Positions 8,408-18,971 of a stretch of DNA of 64,000 nucleotides are shown piece by piece. Each line of letters begins with the position of its first letter. Position 1 is the stretch's first letter. The notes beneath the pieces were generated by a model that was not told where the DNA came from, ran no database searches, and saw only the letters and a program-made list of their open reading frames with translations. The DNA is from Mesorhizobium sp. B2-8-5 (GTDB lineage: Bacteria; Pseudomonadota; Alphaproteobacteria; Rhizobiales; Rhizobiaceae). The stretch covers positions 5,365,501-5,429,500 of the forward strand of contig NZ_CP083951.1 in the NCBI RefSeq assembly GCF_006440675.2, in the 5' to 3' direction. Position numbers and translations under genes: made by a program.

Positions 8408-9415
8408 TCAGTTCTTGCCGCAGGTGTCGGCCATGTCGGGCGTGCACTTGACGAAGCCGGTGTCGATATAGGGCGGTACCGTCTTGCCCTGCTTCAGGTC
8501 ATGCAGGGCCTCGATCGACTTGTAGCCCATATTGTACGGGCTCTGGCCGACAAGGTAGTGGGCAAGCCCATCCTTGAGCAGCGGCAGTTGCGGCGCGAAA
8601 GCGTCGCCGAAGGAGATGACGAGGTCCTTGGAATCGACGCGGTCCTTCACCCGCCCGACCGCCTGCCGGTAGGCCGACGGCGCGTATTGCGCCCAGCCGC
8701 CGACGGCGACGAAAGCGTCGAGCTTGGGATTGGCGACCAGCACGTCGTTCATCTGCTGGGCGGCGAGGCTGATGTTGTCATTGTTGTAGATCGGGCAGCC
8801 GTCGACCTCGGTCCAGCCATTCTCGCCGGCAAGACGCTTCACCGGCTTGTCCTTGGAGACGTTGGCCAGCGTGTCGCGAATGCCCTGGACGCGCAGGTCG
8901 AGATTGAGCGAGCCGGCCGTGCCGGTCTGGATGCAGACCGTGCCGCCCTTCGGCTTGTATTCGACGACCTTCTTGGCCAGCTCGACGCCGAAATTGTAAT
9001 TGTCGGTGCCGATGAAGGTCGAGCGCAGGCCGGCGTCTTCCTGCAGCAGATCGCCGTCGAAGGTCACGATCGGGATGCCGGCCGCCTTTGCCTTTTCCAG
9101 CAGCCGGGCCACGGATTTCGGATTGGTCGCGGAGACCGCGATGCCGTCGACGCCCTTGGTCAGCACGTCGTTGATGACCTGAAGCTGCTGGGCCTCGTTC
9201 ACCTCCGACGGACCGATATAGTAGCACTCGACGCCGAGGTCCTTGGCGGCCTTCTCGCAGCCCTCCTTGACCGGGGCGCTGAAGACGTCGTTCACCGTCT
9301 TGACGATCACCGCATAGGTCTCGGCCGAAGCCGGCGCCGCGTTGATGCCCGCGGCGAATGCCGCCGCGATCACGGTCGCGCCCATTCGGGCGGTCAGTCT
9401 GTCGATGCTTCTCAT
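8408..9415 (-). CDS. Sugar ABC transporter substrate-binding protein (ribose/RbsB type)
   Basis: A 335-residue periplasmic binding protein. The cleavable Sec signal peptide ends near residue 31 (INAAPASAETYAV). The mature part has the family's sugar-binding architecture: DVFSAPVKEGCEKAAKDLGV, the hinge region DGIAVSATNP and IPIVTFDGD. It is the last gene of the seven-gene catabolic operon, 74 bases after the permease. The pattern of permease, single-domain ATPase and binding protein marks a CUT2-type importer of a monosaccharide or polyol. The exact sugar cannot be read from sequence. A GC-rich hairpin follows the stop. Confidence 0.92.
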   Translation of the reverse strand: MRSIDRLTARMGATVIAAAFAAGINAAPASAETYAVIVKTVNDVFSAPVKEGCEKAAKDLGVECYYIGPSEVNEAQQLQVINDVLTKGVDGIAVSATNPKSVARLLEKAKAAGIPIVTFDGDLLQEDAGLRSTFIGTDNYNFGVELAKKVVEYKPKGGTVCIQTGTAGSLNLDLRVQGIRDTLANVSKDKPVKRLAGENGWTEVDGCPIYNNDNISLAAQQMNDVLVANPKLDAFVAVGGWAQYAPSAYRQAVGRVKDRVDSKDLVISFGDAFAPQLPLLKDGLAHYLVGQSPYNMGYKSIEALHDLKQGKTVPPYIDTGFVKCTPDMADTCGKN

Positions 9416-9489
9416 GGTTTTCTCCTCTCTGATGTTATGTGCACGAAAGTGCGCGAACCTTCCGGACAGGCCACCCGTCCGGACAGGTT

Positions 9490-10494
9490 CTAGGCGCGGC
9501 TGGAGCGGAACCGTTCAAGCAGTACCGCGAACAGGATGAAGAGGCCGACGAAGGTGCCCTGCCAGAACGGGTTCACGCCGGCGAGCAGCAGGGCGTTGCG
9601 GATCACCTCGATCAGCACCGAGCCGATGACGGCGCCGAAGGACGTGCCGAAGCCGCCGAGCAGGTTGGCGCCGCCGATGACGGTCGCGGCGATGACCTGC
9701 AGCTCCTGGCCCTGGCCGAGCGCGTTGGTGGCGGCGCCCATCCAGCCGACGAGGAAGATCGCCGTCATGCCGGTCATGGCGCCGAGCAGCGCGTAGGTCG
9801 AAACCTTGACGCGATCGACCGGGATGCCGGAAAGACGCGCGGCATTTTCATTGCCGCCGATGGCGCGCACGTAGCGGCCCCATCTGGTCATCGACAGCAG
9901 CCACTGCATGACGACGGCCGAAACGATCACCGCCCACAGCACGTTCGGCACGCCGAGGAAGGAGCCGCTGCCAAGCGCCAGCAGCGTGTCGCCGGCGCGG
10001 CCGAAATCGTAGACGACCTGGTTGTTGGTGACGACCAGCGTCTGCGAACGCACGAGGCTCATCATGCCGAGCGTGACGATGAAGGGCGGCAGCTTCAGGT
10101 ACGAAACCAGCGCCCCATTGACGATGCCCACGAAGGCGCCGACGAGAAGCACGAACAACACGACGACGGCGAAAGGGTAGCCGCTGGCGCAGAACAGGCC
10201 GAGCAGCACGCCGGTCAGGCCCAGCGTGGAGCCGACGGAGATGTCGATGCCGCCGGTCATGATCACCGGCGTCATGCCGATCGCCATCAGCGCGGTGAAG
10301 CAGAAATTCTGCAGGATGTTGGCCATGTTGGCGCCGGTGAGGAAGCGCGGCGCGATCATGCCCACCACGGCGCCGATGATCAGCACCGCGATGACGATCC
10401 AGAATTCCTGGCTGCGCAGCATCTCGCCGAGCTTGCTGCGTTCCGACAGGTTGAAGACCGAATCCAAGTTGCTGGCGTCCGGAGACTTGTTCAT
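9490..10494 (-). CDS. Sugar ABC transporter permease (RbsC type)
   Basis: A 334-residue inner-membrane permease with eight or more hydrophobic helices. It has the family signature GGIDISVGSTLGLTG in the cytoplasmic coupling region and NLLGGFGTSFGAVIGS near the C-terminus. The reading frame stays open far upstream, but that extension lies antisense to other genes and makes no sense as protein. The ATG at 10494 gives the expected length. It lies 20 bases downstream of the ATPase gene, so the three transporter genes are co-transcribed. Confidence 0.93.
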   Translation of the reverse strand: MNKSPDASNLDSVFNLSERSKLGEMLRSQEFWIVIAVLIIGAVVGMIAPRFLTGANMANILQNFCFTALMAIGMTPVIMTGGIDISVGSTLGLTGVLLGLFCASGYPFAVVVLFVLLVGAFVGIVNGALVSYLKLPPFIVTLGMMSLVRSQTLVVTNNQVVYDFGRAGDTLLALGSGSFLGVPNVLWAVIVSAVVMQWLLSMTRWGRYVRAIGGNENAARLSGIPVDRVKVSTYALLGAMTGMTAIFLVGWMGAATNALGQGQELQVIAATVIGGANLLGGFGTSFGAVIGSVLIEVIRNALLLAGVNPFWQGTFVGLFILFAVLLERFRSSRA

Positions 10495-10514
10495 TCCATC
10501 CTCCCCTGTTGCCT

Positions 10515-11251
<737 letters not shown>

Positions 11252-11255
<4 letters not shown>

Positions 11256-12211
11256 GGCGGGGACTCCCGTTCTTGCTTCGCTTCGGATGCAGGCATCGAT
11301 CGAGCCGCGGCATAGTCGTCGGCGGCCTTGAGGCCGCCATAGAGGACGGCGCGCCAGCCGAGCCCGGCCCAGCGTAGGTCCATCGGGCGGCCCGTCTCGG
11401 CGAAGGGCGCCCGGAGCGCCACCAGTTCCTCCAATTGCCGGCGCGGAAATGCCTCGATCGCGCAGACCCCTCCCCCGAGCACGACCGTGGCCGGGGAAAA
11501 CAGCGCCACCGCCGTGCCGATGGCGAGCGCCTGATCGCGCACGAACCGATCGACGTCCGCACCAAGCCCGGGGATGCGCCGGGACTGGACAAAAACCTCG
11601 GTGACGGGAACGCCGTGCCTGGCGGCGATGACTTCCAGAGCGCGGCCGGAGACGTAGGTTTCCAGGCAGTCCGTGCGCAGTCCTTCCAGCGTCCTGCCCT
11701 CATTGCCGAAAGGCATATGGCCGATCTCCAGCGCCCAGCCGCCGCCGCGAAAGGCTTCGCCGCCCTGCAGGAAGGCGCCGCCGACACCGGTGCCGAAGAA
11801 CAGGCCAAGCACGCTGTCGGCGCCTTTCGCTGCACCCGCGATCACCTCACCCGCCAGCACAAGGACAGAGTCGCGTTCGATGATGACGGGGAAGCCAAGC
11901 AGCGCGCCGAGCTCGCTCGCCAGGTGGTGGCCGTTGAGCTCGGGCACATTGCCGGCGAACAGAACGCGGTCGCCGTCGGTATCGATGAAGCCGGGAACGG
12001 TCGAGACCATCAGGTCGGGGGTTAGGCCCGCCTCGGCGCAGAACTCCCTGACCAGCCTGGCGAAGCTGCCGACGGGATCGGCGTTGCGCATCAAGGCGGA
12101 CGGGAAGAGCCGCTCGCCGGCCTGCGCGACACGGTCGACGACCATGCCGCATTTGACCGAGGTGCCGCCGACATCGACGACCAGGATCGAGCGGATCGAG
12201 GCGCGTGTCAT
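11252..12211 (-). CDS. ROK-family sugar kinase
   Basis: A 319-residue actin-fold kinase with the phosphate 1 motif VVDVGGTSVKCG (residues 11-22) and the Gly-rich GLFFGTGVGGAFLQGG that binds the sugar/ATP region. The classical ROK zinc site CxCGxxGCxE is degenerate: around EGLRTDCLETY only one Cys-x-Glu survives. There is no N-terminal helix-turn-helix, so it is an enzyme rather than a repressor, presumably phosphorylating the imported sugar or its product. It sits between the hydrolase and ATPase genes, overlapping both by 4 bases. Confidence 0.88.
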
Positions 12212-13026
12212 CGGTCGCCTCCCCTGTCCGGAAGGAAGTCTGCCAAGGCGCTCCGGAACTCGGCGATATAGGCCGCGCGATCGACCGTCTTCGACGTGAT
12301 CTCGGCCAGCCGGGCGCCCGGGATGAGACCGGCCAGCTCGCGCGCATAGGAAAGCGGGTGGACGTAATCCTGGTCGTTGCCGATGATCAGCACCGGCTGC
12401 CGGATGGCCTCGATCCGGGCGCGGCTCACGCCCGGCCAGTCGAGCGGAATGCGCGTCAGAAGCGCGATCGTGGTATCGGGCCGCGGCCGCTTGAAGAAGC
12501 CGATGAGCGAGGCCGCGTTGTCCGGCGAGGCCGCAAGGACCTCAATGAACTCCGGCGATACGCGAAAACGCTCCGCGCCTTCTTCGGCGCCGTATTTTTC
12601 GAGATACCGCGCCGCGACGTGATAGCCGTGCTGGCGCTCGATGGAAGGTGCGTCCACCCAGGCCGGCCGCGCCAGCGCCAGCTTTGCCACGCGCGGGGCA
12701 TGAAAGCCTGCCAGCCGCAGCGCAATCGCCGCGCCCAGCGAGATGCCGCCGACCGCAGCCTGTTCGATGCCGAGATGGTCGAGCAGCGCCAAGGCATCGT
12801 CGGCGAACTGCGCGATCGAGAGGCGCGACGGATCGCCAAGCGCGGAGGCGCCGTGGCCCCGGCACATCAGCGTGACGCGTTGCAGACCGGTGTCTTCGGG
12901 AAACACCTCGACCGGCTGGTCGAGAGGCGCGCCGAGCCCGTGCTGCCAAAGCACCGGGTATCCTTTGCCCGCGACATCGAAGGCAAGCGCACAGCCGTCA
13001 GCGGTGGTGAAGGTTCCGGCGGTCAC
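12208..13026 (-). CDS. Alpha/beta hydrolase
   Basis: A 272-residue alpha/beta-fold hydrolase. The oxyanion segment is PVLWQHGLGAP, the nucleophile elbow is GGISLGAAIA (the Ser in GxSxG), and a C-terminal Asp/His pair is suggested by QPVLIIGNDQDYVHP. Members act as esterases, lactonases or C-C hydrolases. Within a sugar catabolic operon a lactonase or deacylase role is plausible, but that is inference. It is coupled by 4-base overlaps to the TIM-barrel gene before it and the ROK kinase after it. Confidence 0.85.
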   Translation of the reverse strand: MTAGTFTTADGCALAFDVAGKGYPVLWQHGLGAPLDQPVEVFPEDTGLQRVTLMCRGHGASALGDPSRLSIAQFADDALALLDHLGIEQAAVGGISLGAAIALRLAGFHAPRVAKLALARPAWVDAPSIERQHGYHVAARYLEKYGAEEGAERFRVSPEFIEVLAASPDNAASLIGFFKRPRPDTTIALLTRIPLDWPGVSRARIEAIRQPVLIIGNDQDYVHPLSYARELAGLIPGARLAEITSKTVDRAAYIAEFRSALADFLPDRGGDR

Positions 13027-13850
13027 GACACGTCCTCAAGAAGCGTGCGCAGAGCCGCGCCCGACGCGGCCGCATCCTTATGCCCAAAGCCATGCGCGAC
13101 GACCGCCTGGCCGTAGCCGCGGGAGCGCAGCAGCCGCAGGAACCGGTGGAGGTCGACGGCGCCGGCGCCGGTGGCGACAACCGTGCCGGCCCGGTCGATG
13201 TCCTTGGCATGCGCCAGGACAATGTGCTCGCCGAGCAGGTCCACCGCCTCTTCCATGACGCGGGCCTGATCGCTCAATCTGTCGCCGACGAGATTGGCGG
13301 CGTCGAGGATGATGCCGAGGCGCGGGCTCCTGACCTCGTCGAGGATCCGCCGCGCGAGAACGGCGTCGGCAACGACATTGCCGGGCTCGGGCTCGATGCC
13401 GAGCCGCACATCGTGCTTGTCGGCAAGCTCGAGCGCCGCATCGAGCTCGGCGCGCAGATCGGCCCAAGCGGCCGGCGAGGCGTTGTCGGGATGGGCTGCC
13501 CACATGTCGTCGGCGTTGCGCGAGCCGGTGCACAGCGTCACGATCGGCGCGCCAAGCAGCGGCGCGGCGGCGACGACATTGGCGAAGCGGGCGCGGGCGG
13601 CACGGCGCACCGCCGTATCGGGGTGAGCCATGTTGTAGGTGCCGGAGAGGCCGGCAATTGCCAGGTCCTGCGCGCGGGCAGCTTCGGCGAAGGCCGTGAG
13701 CTCGGCGGCGGGGACAGTGTCCGGAAGGCTGGCCAATCCCAGGCATGACAGGTTGAACTGCATGCCCTCATAGCCGTCTTGCCCGATCGCCCAGAGCAGC
13801 TGGTCGACGGGGCCGAGCGGATAGGTCCGGGCAAAGATTGCGGGATACAT
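13023..13850 (-). CDS. Sugar phosphate isomerase/epimerase family protein (xylose isomerase-like TIM barrel)
   Basis: A 275-residue AP endonuclease 2-like TIM barrel. Recognisable strands include EGMQFNLSCLGL, IVTLCTGSRN, RLGIEPEPGNVV (metal-binding Glu), LGIILDAANLV and HIVLAHAKDI (metal-binding His). These ligands match the divalent-metal site of hydroxypyruvate isomerase, inosose dehydratase and sugar epimerases. The ATG at 13850 overlaps the stop of the upstream oxidoreductase gene by one base; an in-frame extension beyond it is antisense noise. Likely reaction: isomerisation or epimerisation of the ketose or inosose made by the neighbouring dehydrogenase. Confidence 0.87.
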   Translation of the reverse strand: MYPAIFARTYPLGPVDQLLWAIGQDGYEGMQFNLSCLGLASLPDTVPAAELTAFAEAARAQDLAIAGLSGTYNMAHPDTAVRRAARARFANVVAAAPLLGAPIVTLCTGSRNADDMWAAHPDNASPAAWADLRAELDAALELADKHDVRLGIEPEPGNVVADAVLARRILDEVRSPRLGIILDAANLVGDRLSDQARVMEEAVDLLGEHIVLAHAKDIDRAGTVVATGAGAVDLHRFLRLLRSRGYGQAVVAHGFGHKDAAASGAALRTLLEDVS

Positions 13851-14929
13851 CAGACCGGCCCCGAGGCGTCCGCCAGATCGACGGGCTTGCCGCTGCGGAC
13901 CGACTGGCCGATCGCCACCATGGCGCGGATGGAAGCGACGCCGTCCGCGACCGAGGCGCCGTTCATCGGCACGCCGGTGAGCACGACGTCGGCGAAGCCT
14001 TCGAGCTGGCGGCGATAGAAATGCCCGTCGGCGCCGAGCACGCGCTCGGAGGAAGCGCTGCTCTCGCGGAAGATGTCGACCTCGCTCGACTTGTAGTACC
14101 AGGGGTTGAAGATCTTGCCGATGGCGCTGCCGTTCTCGCCATAGAGCTGGAAGCCTTCGTGCCAGTCCATCCGGACCGGCAGCGTCAGATCGAGATGGCC
14201 GAGCGCGCCATTTTCGAATTCCGTGTCCACGAACCAGCAATGGGCGCCGAAGCGTTCGAGCAGACGTGCCTGCACCGACTTGATCGGCCCCGCCAGATAG
14301 CGCGCGAGATCGACGAGATGGCTGCCATGCGCCAGCATGAAATAGCGCTGGCGATCGGCCTTCTGGTCGCCGGCCGGCTTTAGCGCCTTGGCGCCGGTCC
14401 TTGGCACCGGCTGCACCGCATCGGTCATGGTGTAGCGATGGGTGGAATCGCAGTACCAGGCCTTCAGCGCCAGCAGCGAGCCCATCTCCTTGGTGGCGAA
14501 TTCGTGCGCTGCCTGGATGCCTGGATCGAAACGCAGCATATGGCCGATCTGCAGCACCAGGCCGGTGCGCTCGACATGGCCTCTCAGCTCCTCCGCCTCC
14601 TCGACCGACATTGCGATCGGCTTTTCGCAAAGAACGTGCTTGCCGGCCGAGAGAGCCTTGATCGCCGCCGGAACGTGGAAGGCATCTGAAATGCCGATGA
14701 CGATCGCCTCGACCTCGGGATCGGCGAGCATGCGGTCATAGTCGTTATAGATGCTTGTCGCGTCGTAGAAGGAGCCGAACCGCCGCGCCAGATCGGCATC
14801 GGCATCACAGACGGCCTGGAGGACGACGTTCCTGCCCTTCTGCGCCGATTCCAGATGCGCGAATTGCGAGATCGGGCCGCAGCCGAGGATACCGATGCGC
14901 AGACAACGGGCGTCTTTCTTGACGGGCAC
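13850..14929 (-). CDS. Gfo/Idh/MocA family oxidoreductase
   Basis: A 359-residue NAD(P)-dependent sugar or inositol dehydrogenase. It has an N-terminal Rossmann motif RIGILGCGPIS, then the conserved GKHVLCEKPIAMS with the catalytic Lys. The C-terminal GFO_IDH_MocA domain includes the conserved HGSHLVDLARYL. Translation starts at GTG 14929, supported by GGGGAG about 8 bases upstream. It is the first gene of the seven-gene operon. A large palindrome lies 15 bases before the start codon, so this is the regulated end. Confidence 0.9.
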   Translation of the reverse strand: MPVKKDARCLRIGILGCGPISQFAHLESAQKGRNVVLQAVCDADADLARRFGSFYDATSIYNDYDRMLADPEVEAIVIGISDAFHVPAAIKALSAGKHVLCEKPIAMSVEEAEELRGHVERTGLVLQIGHMLRFDPGIQAAHEFATKEMGSLLALKAWYCDSTHRYTMTDAVQPVPRTGAKALKPAGDQKADRQRYFMLAHGSHLVDLARYLAGPIKSVQARLLERFGAHCWFVDTEFENGALGHLDLTLPVRMDWHEGFQLYGENGSAIGKIFNPWYYKSSEVDIFRESSASSERVLGADGHFYRRQLEGFADVVLTGVPMNGASVADGVASIRAMVAIGQSVRSGKPVDLADASGPV

Positions 14930-14943
14930 AGGCTCGCTCCCCT

Positions 14944-14978
14944 GATATTTGTTTTTGTCTTATACAAAAACAAATATC
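14944..14978. promoter_or_regulatory. Long palindromic operator upstream of the sugar operon
   Basis: A perfect inverted repeat with 15-base arms (GATATTTGTTTTTGT and its complement) around a 5-base spacer CTTAT. It stands 15 bases before the first gene of the operon in otherwise GC-rich DNA. AT-rich palindromes of this kind are bound by ROK-type repressors (NagC/XylR/Mlc class), and such a repressor is encoded at 15504-16661. Direct binding is inferred, not shown. Confidence 0.75.
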
Positions 14979-15503
14979 ACAAACCGCCCCGCGTCAAGGC
15001 GCTTGATTAGGATTTCTGCGATGGCTGTTTTGCGGGATGCGACAATAGATCGACTTCGCATGGCCGCGGTCGGCGCTAGTGCTTTGAGTTGGCTCACCAA
15101 AATGGACTGTCGCAGCGCCCCGCTGTTCGCCAGTGCGTGCAAGAAAAAACCTTGGAAATGACAGCCAGTTCCTCAGCACAGGGACTGGATTTTCACCGTC
15201 TATTTCCGTGGAATCAGCGCAAACGCTGGAGATTGGTGGAAGCCTCCCCAACGTCGTCATCCCTGGGCGGAGCAGCCGCGAAGCGGCGTCGTGGGGACCC
15301 TGGGATCCATTCGGTTACTTTGATCGAAGAACGTAGCGGAGCAGAATTCTGGACCGCAGCAGCGCTCATGAGTCACGGAATGGATCCTCGGGTCTGCGCG
15401 CGTCGCTACGCTCCTTGCTCCGCCCGTGGATGACGAGGCCGGACCGGTTCGGCCAATCTCCAAGGCATACCACCTGCCAACGCAGACATAGCCGACTGGG
15501 AAA
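14979..15503. other. Intergenic region upstream of the sugar operon
   Basis: About 525 bases between the operator and the ROK repressor gene. No convincing gene is present. The right half is filled by a 181-base element with 58-base inverted ends (listed separately). The left part, 14990-15250, shows no repeats or coding signal that I can support and presumably holds promoter sequence for the sugar operon. Confidence 0.5.
15255..15435. repeat. Intergenic element with 58-base imperfect inverted ends
   Basis: The left arm (15255-15312) begins CGTCATCC and contains GGGCGGAGCA and GATCCATTC. The right arm (15378-15435) is its imperfect reverse complement, starting GAATGGATCC and ending GGATGACG. 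The arms diverge mainly in their centres. A 65-base middle separates them. The layout matches palindromic intergenic elements common in rhizobial genomes (RIME-like); no transposase is encoded. Confidence 0.7.
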
Positions 15504-16661
15504 CTACCGCGTGCTGGCCTCGAGGTCCGGGAGAGCGAAAAGCGTGTCGCGGATGGTCGCCGCCGCGCCGATCGCGGCGCCGTCGGCGCCGAACTGCGCC
15601 ACCCTGATCTCGGGCATCGCGAAGCCCGCCAGAAGCCGCCGCTTGATATCGGCCTGGATGCGCCGGCCGAGCTTGGGATAGAGGCCTGCCAGCGGGCCGC
15701 CGAGCACGATGCGCCCGGGGTCGAGCAGATGGATGGCGTTGACGAGGCCCGCGGAAAGGCCGCTGACCCAGGCGTCGAGCACGGCGTCCACGTCCTTGCT
15801 GCCGACGCTTGCAAGCAGCATCTGGACGCCGTCGGCCACTGGCTGCCCCTCTTCGAACAGCCGCGTGAAAAGCTTGGCGCCGGCCAGCATCTCGAATGTA
15901 TCGACGCGGCCGCCGGCGGAAACGATGGTGTGGCCGATTTCGCCGGAGTAGCCGTGCCCGCCCATCACGACACGGCCGTCATCGATGATGGCGCCGCCGA
16001 TGCCCTCGGCCAGGAGAACGACCAGCATGCTGCCGGCCTTCGCCGTGGCGGAGGCGGCAAGCTCGGCATTGGCGAAGGCGAAAGCGTCGTTGCAGACCAT
16101 GACCGACCAGTCGGCCGGCGACTTGGCCGTCAGTTCCGCTTGCAGGGGATAGTTGCGCCATTCCAGGAACGGCGCATGCACCACGCTGCCGTCGCGGCCG
16201 ACGAGGCCCGGCACCGAAATGCCGATGCCCTCCACCTTGTCCTGCAGAGCGGGATTTTCGTTGAGCAGCCTCTCGATCAGGGAGAGCAGCCTTGCCGATA
16301 TATGCCCGGCGTCGCGGTAGCGCGGACCGGTCGGCTCGACGATGCGGCTGACGACATTCATCTGCAGGTCGAGCAGCACCCCGGTCAAGGAACGCGTGCC
16401 GACATCGGCGCCGACAAAATACGCCCCCGAAGGGTTGAGCGACACGCCCACGCCCGGACGACCCTTGCGCGTTTCAGGGGACATTTCGGCGCTCTCGACG
16501 ACAAGGCCGGCATCGAGCAGGACGCGCATGGCGTTGCCGATCGTGGCCCTTGTCAGGCCGAGCTGGCGGGCCATGTCGGCGCGGGAGAGCTGCCGGCCGT
16601 TTTGCAGCAGTCTCAGGCAACGCCTGGCGTTGATATGGCGCAGTAGGCTTGTCGTATTCAA
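15504..16661 (-). CDS. ROK-family transcriptional repressor
   Basis: A 385-residue NagC/XylR-type regulator. The N-terminal winged helix-turn-helix reads LSRADMARQLGLTRATIGNAMR, about residues 26-47 from the chosen start. It is followed by an actin-like sugar-sensing domain with VGADVGTRSLTGVLLD and VVLLAEGIGGAIIDDG. The Cys-rich ROK zinc motif is absent. No ATG fits; TTG at 16661 gives the typical NTTSLLRHINARR start, but no good ribosome-binding site is seen, so the start is uncertain. It is encoded beside the sugar operon and is the obvious candidate to bind the palindrome at 14944-14978. Confidence 0.87.
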   Translation of the reverse strand: MNTTSLLRHINARRCLRLLQNGRQLSRADMARQLGLTRATIGNAMRVLLDAGLVVESAEMSPETRKGRPGVGVSLNPSGAYFVGADVGTRSLTGVLLDLQMNVVSRIVEPTGPRYRDAGHISARLLSLIERLLNENPALQDKVEGIGISVPGLVGRDGSVVHAPFLEWRNYPLQAELTAKSPADWSVMVCNDAFAFANAELAASATAKAGSMLVVLLAEGIGGAIIDDGRVVMGGHGYSGEIGHTIVSAGGRVDTFEMLAGAKLFTRLFEEGQPVADGVQMLLASVGSKDVDAVLDAWVSGLSAGLVNAIHLLDPGRIVLGGPLAGLYPKLGRRIQADIKRRLLAGFAMPEIRVAQFGADGAAIGAAATIRDTLFALPDLEASTR

Positions 16662-17862: not shown

Positions 17863-18834
17863 TCAGATCTGGGTTGGGGTGAAGGCGTAGGCGTTGCCGT
17901 CCCTGACGAAGCTGCCTGTGCCGGGGAACGGGAAGTGCGAACCGCAGATGCGGACATTGTCGGCGATCACCTGGTCGATGATCCGGTGGCGCGTGGTGAT
18001 CGCCATCGGCCCATCCTGGTCATAAGCGCCCTGCCATTCGGGATGCGGGGCAAGCAGCGCCGGCACGTACATGGTGTCGGCCGAGACGAGGAACTGCTCG
18101 GAGCCGGCATCGACATGGTAGACGGAATGGCCGGGCGTGTGGCCGGGCGCCGCCATGAGGCGGATGCCGGGCACCACTTCCGCGCCATCGTCGACCAGCT
18201 TCCAGTTCTTCCATTTCGGGAAGTTCTCGGCGATGCGCTTGCCCGCCGGCTTGCGGCCCTCGGGCAGCTTGGCGAGGCGGCTCGGATCCGTCCACCAATT
18301 GTATTCGGTGGCATTGACGATCAGCTCGGCATTCGGGAACACCGGATTGTTGGTGCCTTTTTCCATCAGGCCCCAGACATGGTCAGGATGGAAATGCGAG
18401 ATCATGATGGTGTCGATCGCCTTGTAGTCGATGCCGGCGGCCTTCATGTTGGCCGGAAGATGCGTGGCGTTGGCCTGCCACTGGCCGACGCCTGAACCGG
18501 CGTCCATCATGATGGTGCGGCCGTTCATCTGAAGCACCACGACGGTGAGCGGGATCGGCATGAATTCGGTGGTCAGTCCGGCCTTGGCGAGTGCCGCCTT
18601 GGTGTCGTCGATCGACACATCCTTGATGAAGGCCGGGTCGTGCGGCTTGCGCCAGATGCCGTCATAGACGGCGGTGACCTCGAGCGAGCCGACCTTGTAT
18701 TTGTAGAAGCCGACCAGCGGCTCGACCGGGGTTTCGGCGTAAGCCGCGGGCGCGAATTCCAGCTTGCCGGCAATGCCGAAGGCGGCCGCGGCGGCGGCGG
18801 AACCGAGCACCATGCGGCGTGTCATGTTGAACAT
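17863..18834 (-). CDS. Exported MBL-fold metallo-hydrolase
   Basis: A 323-residue metallo-beta-lactamase-fold enzyme with a Tat-like leader (TRRMVLGSAAAAAAFG) ending near residue 34. The zinc ligands are visible as ISHFHPDHVWG (HxHxDH), and AAPGHTPGH supplies the third-site His. This layout is that of lactonase-like hydrolases such as AiiA-type acyl-homoserine lactonases and arylsulfatase-like relatives, but the substrate cannot be called. The start is supported by AGGAG 7 bases before the ATG. It could act in the periplasm on lactones or signals; that is inference. Confidence 0.86.
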   Translation of the reverse strand: MFNMTRRMVLGSAAAAAAFGIAGKLEFAPAAYAETPVEPLVGFYKYKVGSLEVTAVYDGIWRKPHDPAFIKDVSIDDTKAALAKAGLTTEFMPIPLTVVVLQMNGRTIMMDAGSGVGQWQANATHLPANMKAAGIDYKAIDTIMISHFHPDHVWGLMEKGTNNPVFPNAELIVNATEYNWWTDPSRLAKLPEGRKPAGKRIAENFPKWKNWKLVDDGAEVVPGIRLMAAPGHTPGHSVYHVDAGSEQFLVSADTMYVPALLAPHPEWQGAYDQDGPMAITTRHRIIDQVIADNVRICGSHFPFPGTGSFVRDGNAYAFTPTQI

Positions 18835-18893: not shown

Positions 18894-18971
18894 GGCGGAG
18901 GGCCCGGTGCGACCCTCCGCCGGCTGCGGAACCGGAGCCGGCCGGTCCGACTGAAGACCGGCCGGCTCCGG
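18894..18971. repeat. Two adjacent strong hairpins
   Basis: First hairpin: GGCGGAGGG (18894-18902) pairs with CCCTCCGCC (18913-18921). Second: a perfect 16-base stem CCGGAGCCGGCCGGTC (18932-18947) with its complement at 18956-18971 and an 8-base loop. Neither has a good T-run on either strand. They lie between the metallo-hydrolase gene and the frameshifted DUF680 gene and may act as terminators or mRNA-stabilising structures. Confidence 0.6.

Follow-up and report, generated by a model that had tools for sequence, protein, structure and literature searches.

A seven-gene sugar operon of Mesorhizobium, probably under a dedicated ROK operator, with predicted active-site changes in two core enzymes

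Introduction

Several described systems share parts with a seven-gene sugar operon that we analysed in a 64,000-nucleotide stretch of DNA (the window) from Mesorhizobium sp. B2-8-5. The D-allose system of Escherichia coli, AlsBACEK, likewise combines a sugar ATP-binding cassette (ABC) importer with a ROK family kinase bearing an RD motif; the kinase in the window is 32% identical to E. coli AlsK over 208 residues of the part compared. AlsBACEK differs in its 510-amino-acid (aa) ATPase, in the AlsE epimerase encoded within the operon and in the absence of the core present here, which consists of a Gfo/Idh dehydrogenase, a TIM barrel and an alpha/beta hydrolase. The database record of E. coli AlsR does not class it as a ROK protein.

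Other systems resemble the core. The levoglucosan genes LgdA-LgdB1-LgdB2-LgdC and the Agrobacterium GlycDH/OGE/HYD genes pair an oxidoreductase with a TIM barrel of the sugar phosphate isomerase/epimerase type, and the lgd genes have ABC sugar importer genes alongside, but the available excerpts of these reports name no alpha/beta hydrolase or ROK pair. E. coli YcjQRS, which acts in 3-keto-glycoside epimerisation, contains a Gfo/Idh enzyme (YcjS, 25% identity) and a TIM barrel (YcjR, 27% over 143 residues), but it has two dehydrogenases, the annotation of YcjR is 3-dehydro-guloside 4-epimerase, and the listed cluster contains no ROK kinase. The fructose system frcBCA-frcK-frcR of Sinorhizobium meliloti encodes an ABC importer, a kinase and a putative negative regulator; however, FrcK resembles P-loop/pantothenate kinases rather than ROK kinases, and the excerpted report mentions no core trio (PMC10433430). 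Here we show that the seven genes form one real, dedicated sugar operon, probably controlled by its own ROK operator, and that its three-enzyme core is widespread while the importer is exchanged in several loci.

Results

The operon lies in a single-contig genome of 6.46 Mb (G000), and the nearest named relatives of its first gene are mostly from Mesorhizobium. In order of transcription on the minus strand, it encodes a Gfo/Idh dehydrogenase, a TIM barrel, an alpha/beta hydrolase, a ROK kinase, and the ATPase, permease and binding protein of an ABC importer (Table 1). A first-pass annotation had proposed a seven-gene sugar operon joined by overlaps. Pfam and NCBIfam profile matches confirmed all seven open reading frames and their families; overlaps of 1, 4, 4 and 4 bases link the first five genes only, and gaps of 20 bp and 74 bp precede the permease and binding-protein genes, respectively. 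None of the seven proteins reached an NCBIfam cut-off (for the ATPase, among the best 25 of 189 families). The same annotation could match the set to no described pathway, and we likewise found none that fits all parts, either by NCBIfam scores, which stay far below the equivalog cut-offs, or in the open-licence literature.

The importer is a CUT2-type set encoded together, with a Peripla_BP_4 binding protein, a BPD_transp_2 permease and an ABC ATPase. The closest solved structures of the binding protein are named sugar-binding proteins of ABC importers. The ATPase lacks the tandem nucleotide-binding domains of the RbsA/AlsA type; it matches just the first half of RbsA/XylG/AlsA-type models, the best being matched at 4-242 of 513. 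For the kinase, the best NCBIfam model is allose kinase, at 140 bits against a cut-off of 253 and thus below the equivalog score. Aligned with part of E. coli AlsK, it shares the RD (not ND) motif, and D114 was found in 17/17 rows. Residues 164-165 are GH in the window, GL in locus L101 and GN in L034. The zinc motif CxCGxxGC, present in E. coli AlsK, is absent, one of its three cysteines being left in the window.

Homologues of the operon were then compared. A dehydrogenase ortholog was detected in 28 of 61 genomes, the window's own included, with E below 1e-149; the next best match gave 1.8e-26. The genome collection held 390 stretches with a relative, perhaps including paralogs, and the loci analysed were the best 80 of these, all from species-level genomes and at least 65% identical. 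Among plasmid records, 122 carried a relative, 119 of them at 60-80% identity. When 398 genomes were drawn evenly from the phylum, six matches reached E 1e-100 or better, again counting the window's own genome.

The TIM barrel directly follows the dehydrogenase in 79/80 loci, and the hydrolase is present as well in 74/80. The exceptions are L035, without the TIM barrel, L022, where the contig breaks off, and four loci without the hydrolase (L037, L040, L045 and L093). A kinase of at least 45% identity follows the core in 15 loci, and a binding-protein ortholog above 50% is found in seven (L021, L023-L026, L030 and L039). Several of the other loci that were inspected have a different importer, AraFGH-like in Paraburkholderia and CUT1-type with UgpC in Rhizobium tumorigenes, Shinella and Rhizobium leguminosarum. 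Thus the core stays the same from locus to locus, whereas the uptake genes vary. S. meliloti and Mesorhizobium jarvisii have the complete set, with binding proteins 57-58% identical; the set is not peculiar to the genome of the window.

Three Mesorhizobium assemblies contain two versions of the module (L023/L060, L025/L059 and L026/L075), one with a dehydrogenase 88-95% identical to that in the window and the other with a dehydrogenase 66-67% identical and an epimerase tail. In the Rhizobium-type loci L104, L105, L107 and L108, a second pair of Gfo/Idh enzyme and alpha/beta hydrolase and a second TIM barrel lie near the core. The second TIM barrel of L104 is closest to IolE, far below the IolE cut-off. 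Three of these four loci also have a class I fructose-bisphosphate aldolase, two of them together with a PfkB kinase.

A record of S. meliloti strain Ak57 (L109) carries all eight parts. Identities are 62% for the Gfo/Idh enzyme, 40% for the TIM barrel, 42% for the hydrolase, 41% for the ROK kinase, 69% for the ATPase, 57% each for the permease and binding protein, and 30% for the ROK regulator. The gene order differs, with divergent ROK genes and the importer genes ahead of the core. Judged by order and annotation, this group is probably SMc03810-SMc03817 of strain 1021. In one study, SMc03810 (a putative non-heme chloroperoxidase) and SMc03815 (an ABC ATP-binding protein) belong to one PhaR module, and PhaR binds the SMc03815 promoter; promoter and protein levels disagreed there (PMC12542648). 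Two further papers place smc03810 in a table of a Clr study (PMC5498481) and list SMc03816 as a transcription factor (PMC11387232). The open-licence literature searched names no substrate for the S. meliloti group or for the operon in the window.

The active sites of the core enzymes were examined by alignment. In the dehydrogenase, the EKP motif (K103) and H204 are preserved among orthologs. Ketose 3-epimerases of the DTE/UlaE family use a Glu/Asp/His/Glu metal site and a catalytic Glu pair. By sequence, the TIM barrel is nearest to UlaE and the ketose 3-epimerases and has the expected fold; E153, D183 and H214 are present in 87/87 aligned rows, but the fourth metal position is His253 in 86/87, where the ketose 3-epimerases carry a metal-ligand Glu. 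The hydrolase has the alpha/beta fold, the nucleophile Ser and the acid, but the catalytic His expected after the last strand is absent, position 248 being His in one of 82 rows (L079). His223 and Lys246 are invariant in the same 82 rows, and Lys246 also in 119/119 rows of a second set. Judged from these alignments, two operon enzymes lack catalytic residues used by their textbook relatives, and the core chemistry is probably unusual. The mix of dehydrogenase, isomerase and hydrolase had been taken to point to an unusual sugar, polyol or lactone; because the canonical triad His is missing, the hydrolase should not simply be labelled a lactonase.

The head of the operon bears a perfect palindrome, as the first-pass annotation had noticed, but of 37 bp with two exact 16-base arms and a 5-base centre, not of 35 bases with arms of 15. 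At up to three mismatches it occurs once in the window and in none of 100 dinucleotide shuffles; the longest inverted-repeat arm in ten block-shuffled windows was 9-11. Its 27-bp core, again at up to three mismatches, occurs once in the 6.46 Mb genome, and from this single strong site the regulator looks local. In L021 and L026 both arms are altered together and palindromy is retained, L023 has one mismatch, in one arm, and the distant relatives L030, L039, L034, L031 and L028 retain a shorter version.

A ROK repressor gene was said to adjoin the palindrome. It is present upstream on the same strand, separated by 524 bp. The protein is best read from a TTG start as 385 aa, not as the longest frame, with an N-terminal winged helix-turn-helix followed by a ROK domain; the helix-turn-helix matches have E values of 3e-4 to 5e-4, all below Pfam's own cut-offs, and the alignment to the Mlc model starts at model position 13. 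Between repressor and operon, positions 15227-15462 hold nested inverted repeats with arms of 15-24 nt and 83-90% complementarity, perhaps an intergenic repeat element.

For each of 87 loci (the 80 genome loci and plasmid loci L101-L107), we scored the best TTTGTTT-N-AAACAAA site within the 300 bp preceding the dehydrogenase, with a threshold of at least 11 of 14 positions. In 16 loci, a ROK regulator of at least 40% identity lies within about 4.5 kb of the core genes. A site was found in 15 of these 16 versus one of the 71 others; that one, L103, has an adjoining annotated ROK regulator of 35% identity. Random windows of the same loci reached the threshold in 10/240 cases, some of which may hold a true site. 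The site of L030 and L039 overlies the -10 element of a TTGACG-17-TATACA promoter. In the clade of the window TTGACG is kept and TATAAG stands in the palindrome centre, but at a spacing of 27 bases, so that the exact promoter there is unsure; a promoter consensus scan did not report the TTGACG. As the site goes with a ROK regulator close by, we prefer to interpret it as a dedicated ROK operator covering the promoter; on this pattern of conservation the operon is probably under such an operator.

Several points weigh against this conclusion. The motif was designed after the scored sequences had been seen, and six of the 16 regulator-bearing loci are close copies of the locus in the window. The motif is absent beside the ROK gene in the Burkholderia-type loci L032, L036, L038 and L101 (scores of 8-10 of 14), in which the regulator is separate from the core; L032 is the regulator-bearing locus of the 16 that lacked a site, and L036, L038 and L101 had been counted as without a regulator owing to distance. 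No motif site was found at the repressor's own promoter in close relatives, and in the M. jarvisii plasmid locus L106 a more distant ROK regulator (32% identity) directly precedes the dehydrogenase without a motif site. Upstream of the ROK gene, L032, L038 and L101 share an A+T-rich sequence of another kind that contains TGCATT or ATGCAT, possibly a shifted operator.

Many loci add a ribulose-phosphate-3-epimerase-like gene; eight that were compared share 28-33% identity with AlsE as well as with Rpe of E. coli. Kinase and epimerase genes were surveyed in 90 loci within 7.5 kb and the fetched stretch. An RD-motif, allose-kinase-like kinase was found in 18 loci, 17 of them without the epimerase (L027 has both). 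A glucokinase-like kinase was found in 56, every one with the epimerase; its motif is ND in 53 and was not read in three, and four such kinases that were aligned have LEND (three) or VEND (one). No kinase was found in the remaining 16 loci, 10 of which have the epimerase. On a dehydrogenase tree of the 90 rows, the kinase type changes at least four times and the epimerase five times among the 74 kinase-bearing rows. Transaldolase is added in L037 and in five Rhodobacteraceae-type loci (L041, L033, L042, L043 and L044), which would be consistent with a ketose phosphate as end product. The order in L041 is Gfo/Idh enzyme, TIM barrel, hydrolase, ROK regulator, transaldolase, epimerase and ROK kinase, with no match to the window's importer alongside.

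Elsewhere in the window, positions 18932-18971 form a second perfect inverted repeat, which is G+C-rich and whose 16-base arms enclose a loop of 8 bases. It lies some 100 bp upstream of an MBL-fold-like gene (17863-18834) and resembles a terminator or a repeat element.

Table 1. Positions of the operon genes, the repressor gene and the control elements in the window.
Feature	Position	Strand	Remarks
Periplasmic sugar-binding protein	8408..9415	-	last gene; Peripla_BP_4, 206 bits
ABC importer permease	9490..10494	-	ATG start; BPD_transp_2; best model ribose permease
ABC importer ATPase	10515..11255	-	single nucleotide-binding domain, 246 aa
ROK sugar kinase, allose-kinase-like	11252..12211	-	ERD catalytic motif (R113-D114)
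Alpha/beta hydrolase	12208..13026	-	S96 and D220 present; canonical triad His absent; H223 and K246 invariant
AP_endonuc_2 TIM barrel	13023..13850	-	ATG start; metal site by alignment E153/D183/H214/H253
Gfo/Idh/MocA dehydrogenase	13850..14929	-	first gene, GTG start; Pfam GFO_IDH_MocA 88 bits, E 7e-25
AGGGGAG, ribosome-binding site	14937..14943	-	at palindrome end, one base common to both
Perfect palindrome, proposed ROK operator over promoter	14943..14979		16+5+16
TTGACG, -35-like element	14992..14997	-	kept in relatives; spacing to -10 differs in the clade of the window
ROK family transcriptional repressor (helix-turn-helix and ROK domain)	15504..16661	-	Pfam ROK 108.6 bits

Discussion

We consider it likely that the operon serves the inducible uptake and breakdown of one monosaccharide-sized sugar, including the ROK switch and the order of enzyme steps given here. 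Gene layout, protein families, the conserved operator-like site, the core and the altered residues were read from sequence, and from them we infer the steps of the mechanism. When the sugar is absent, a dimer of the ROK repressor would occupy the palindrome and thereby cover the promoter; binding of the sugar or one of its derivatives to the ROK domain would release the dimer. The ABC importer would bring the sugar into the cell, where the Gfo/Idh enzyme would oxidise a hydroxyl with NAD(P). The keto intermediate may then be reworked by the metal-dependent TIM barrel and the alpha/beta hydrolase, and the ROK kinase would phosphorylate the product, which would enter central metabolism as a ketohexose phosphate.

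The either-or pattern of kinase and epimerase hints at a C3-epimeric (allo) sugar, and the kinase, with allose kinase as its best model and the RD motif of E. coli AlsK, points the same way. The pattern can be read as a core that makes such a sugar, which is then phosphorylated directly or only after epimerisation, and a C3-epimeric hexose such as allose or allulose is a tentative candidate for the core product. A bolder proposal, which we hold with corresponding reserve, is that the trio constitutes an undescribed module with its own chemistry, in which a His would replace the second catalytic Glu of the TIM barrel and the hydrolase would work with Ser96, Asp220, His223 and Lys246 without a Ser-His-Asp triad. 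The module would deliver an allo hexose to one of two tails that can replace each other: either an allose-kinase-like kinase, or a 3-epimerase with a glucokinase-like kinase acting after it. The allo assignment has to face several observations that speak against it. The kinase/epimerase pattern amounts to four independent switches, opposite in about 3.7 of 4 pairs (sign test, p 0.125). In G000, no RpiB match was found in a search run without a positive control, and no AlsE-like gene was found, in the operon or elsewhere, but only two Rpe-like genes outside it, which look like ordinary Rpe (47% identical to E. coli Rpe). With no RpiB match and ordinary Rpe copies, a plain allose route to fructose 6-phosphate appears incomplete in this genome.

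An unlikely alternative is a short glycoside route of oxidation, elimination, hydration and reduction, as for levoglucosan (Lgd), puerarin (Dgp) and the Agrobacterium OGE/HYD enzymes. The Gfo/Idh enzyme would form a 3-keto-glycoside, the TIM barrel would eliminate the aglycone, and the sugar would be rehydrated, reduced and phosphorylated. However, the operon encodes a single oxidoreductase and a single TIM barrel, whereas in the available excerpts the Lgd and Agrobacterium operons encode two of either kind (PMC7676230, PMC10628242). The levoglucosan dehydrogenase model scores 68 bits against a cut-off of 650, the TIM barrel profile lies nearest UlaE and the ketose 3-epimerases, and a binding protein of the CUT2 type points to a free sugar.

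Quite improbable is a lactone route, in which the dehydrogenase would oxidise C1, the hydrolase would open the resulting lactone, and later steps would yield a ketose to be phosphorylated. At 82 bits, the relevant score falls well short of the cut-off of 255.85, the lack of the triad His in 81/82 rows makes ordinary Ser-His-Asp ester hydrolysis doubtful, and the seven genes include no aldonate dehydratase or other aldonate gene. Least probable of all is that the palindrome is not a repressor site but forms a leader RNA hairpin that serves attenuation or protects the mRNA: the predicted stem is strong (z -5.3), it directly precedes the ribosome-binding site and both arms changed together in L021 and L026, but it has no Rfam match and no T-run after it, the ribosome-binding site lies outside it except for one base, L023 has a one-arm mismatch, relatives keep just the short TTTGTTT/AAACAAA core together with a ROK gene, and the whole stem cannot be in the transcript of L030 and L039, where the -10 element lies within the site.

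Many rhizobial sugar operons lack a known substrate, and given the spread of this module, a single assignment here would annotate it in a large number of genomes. With their altered active sites, the TIM barrel and the hydrolase would extend two very common enzyme folds by unusual chemistry, and a direct test of what the core makes is offered by the two tails.

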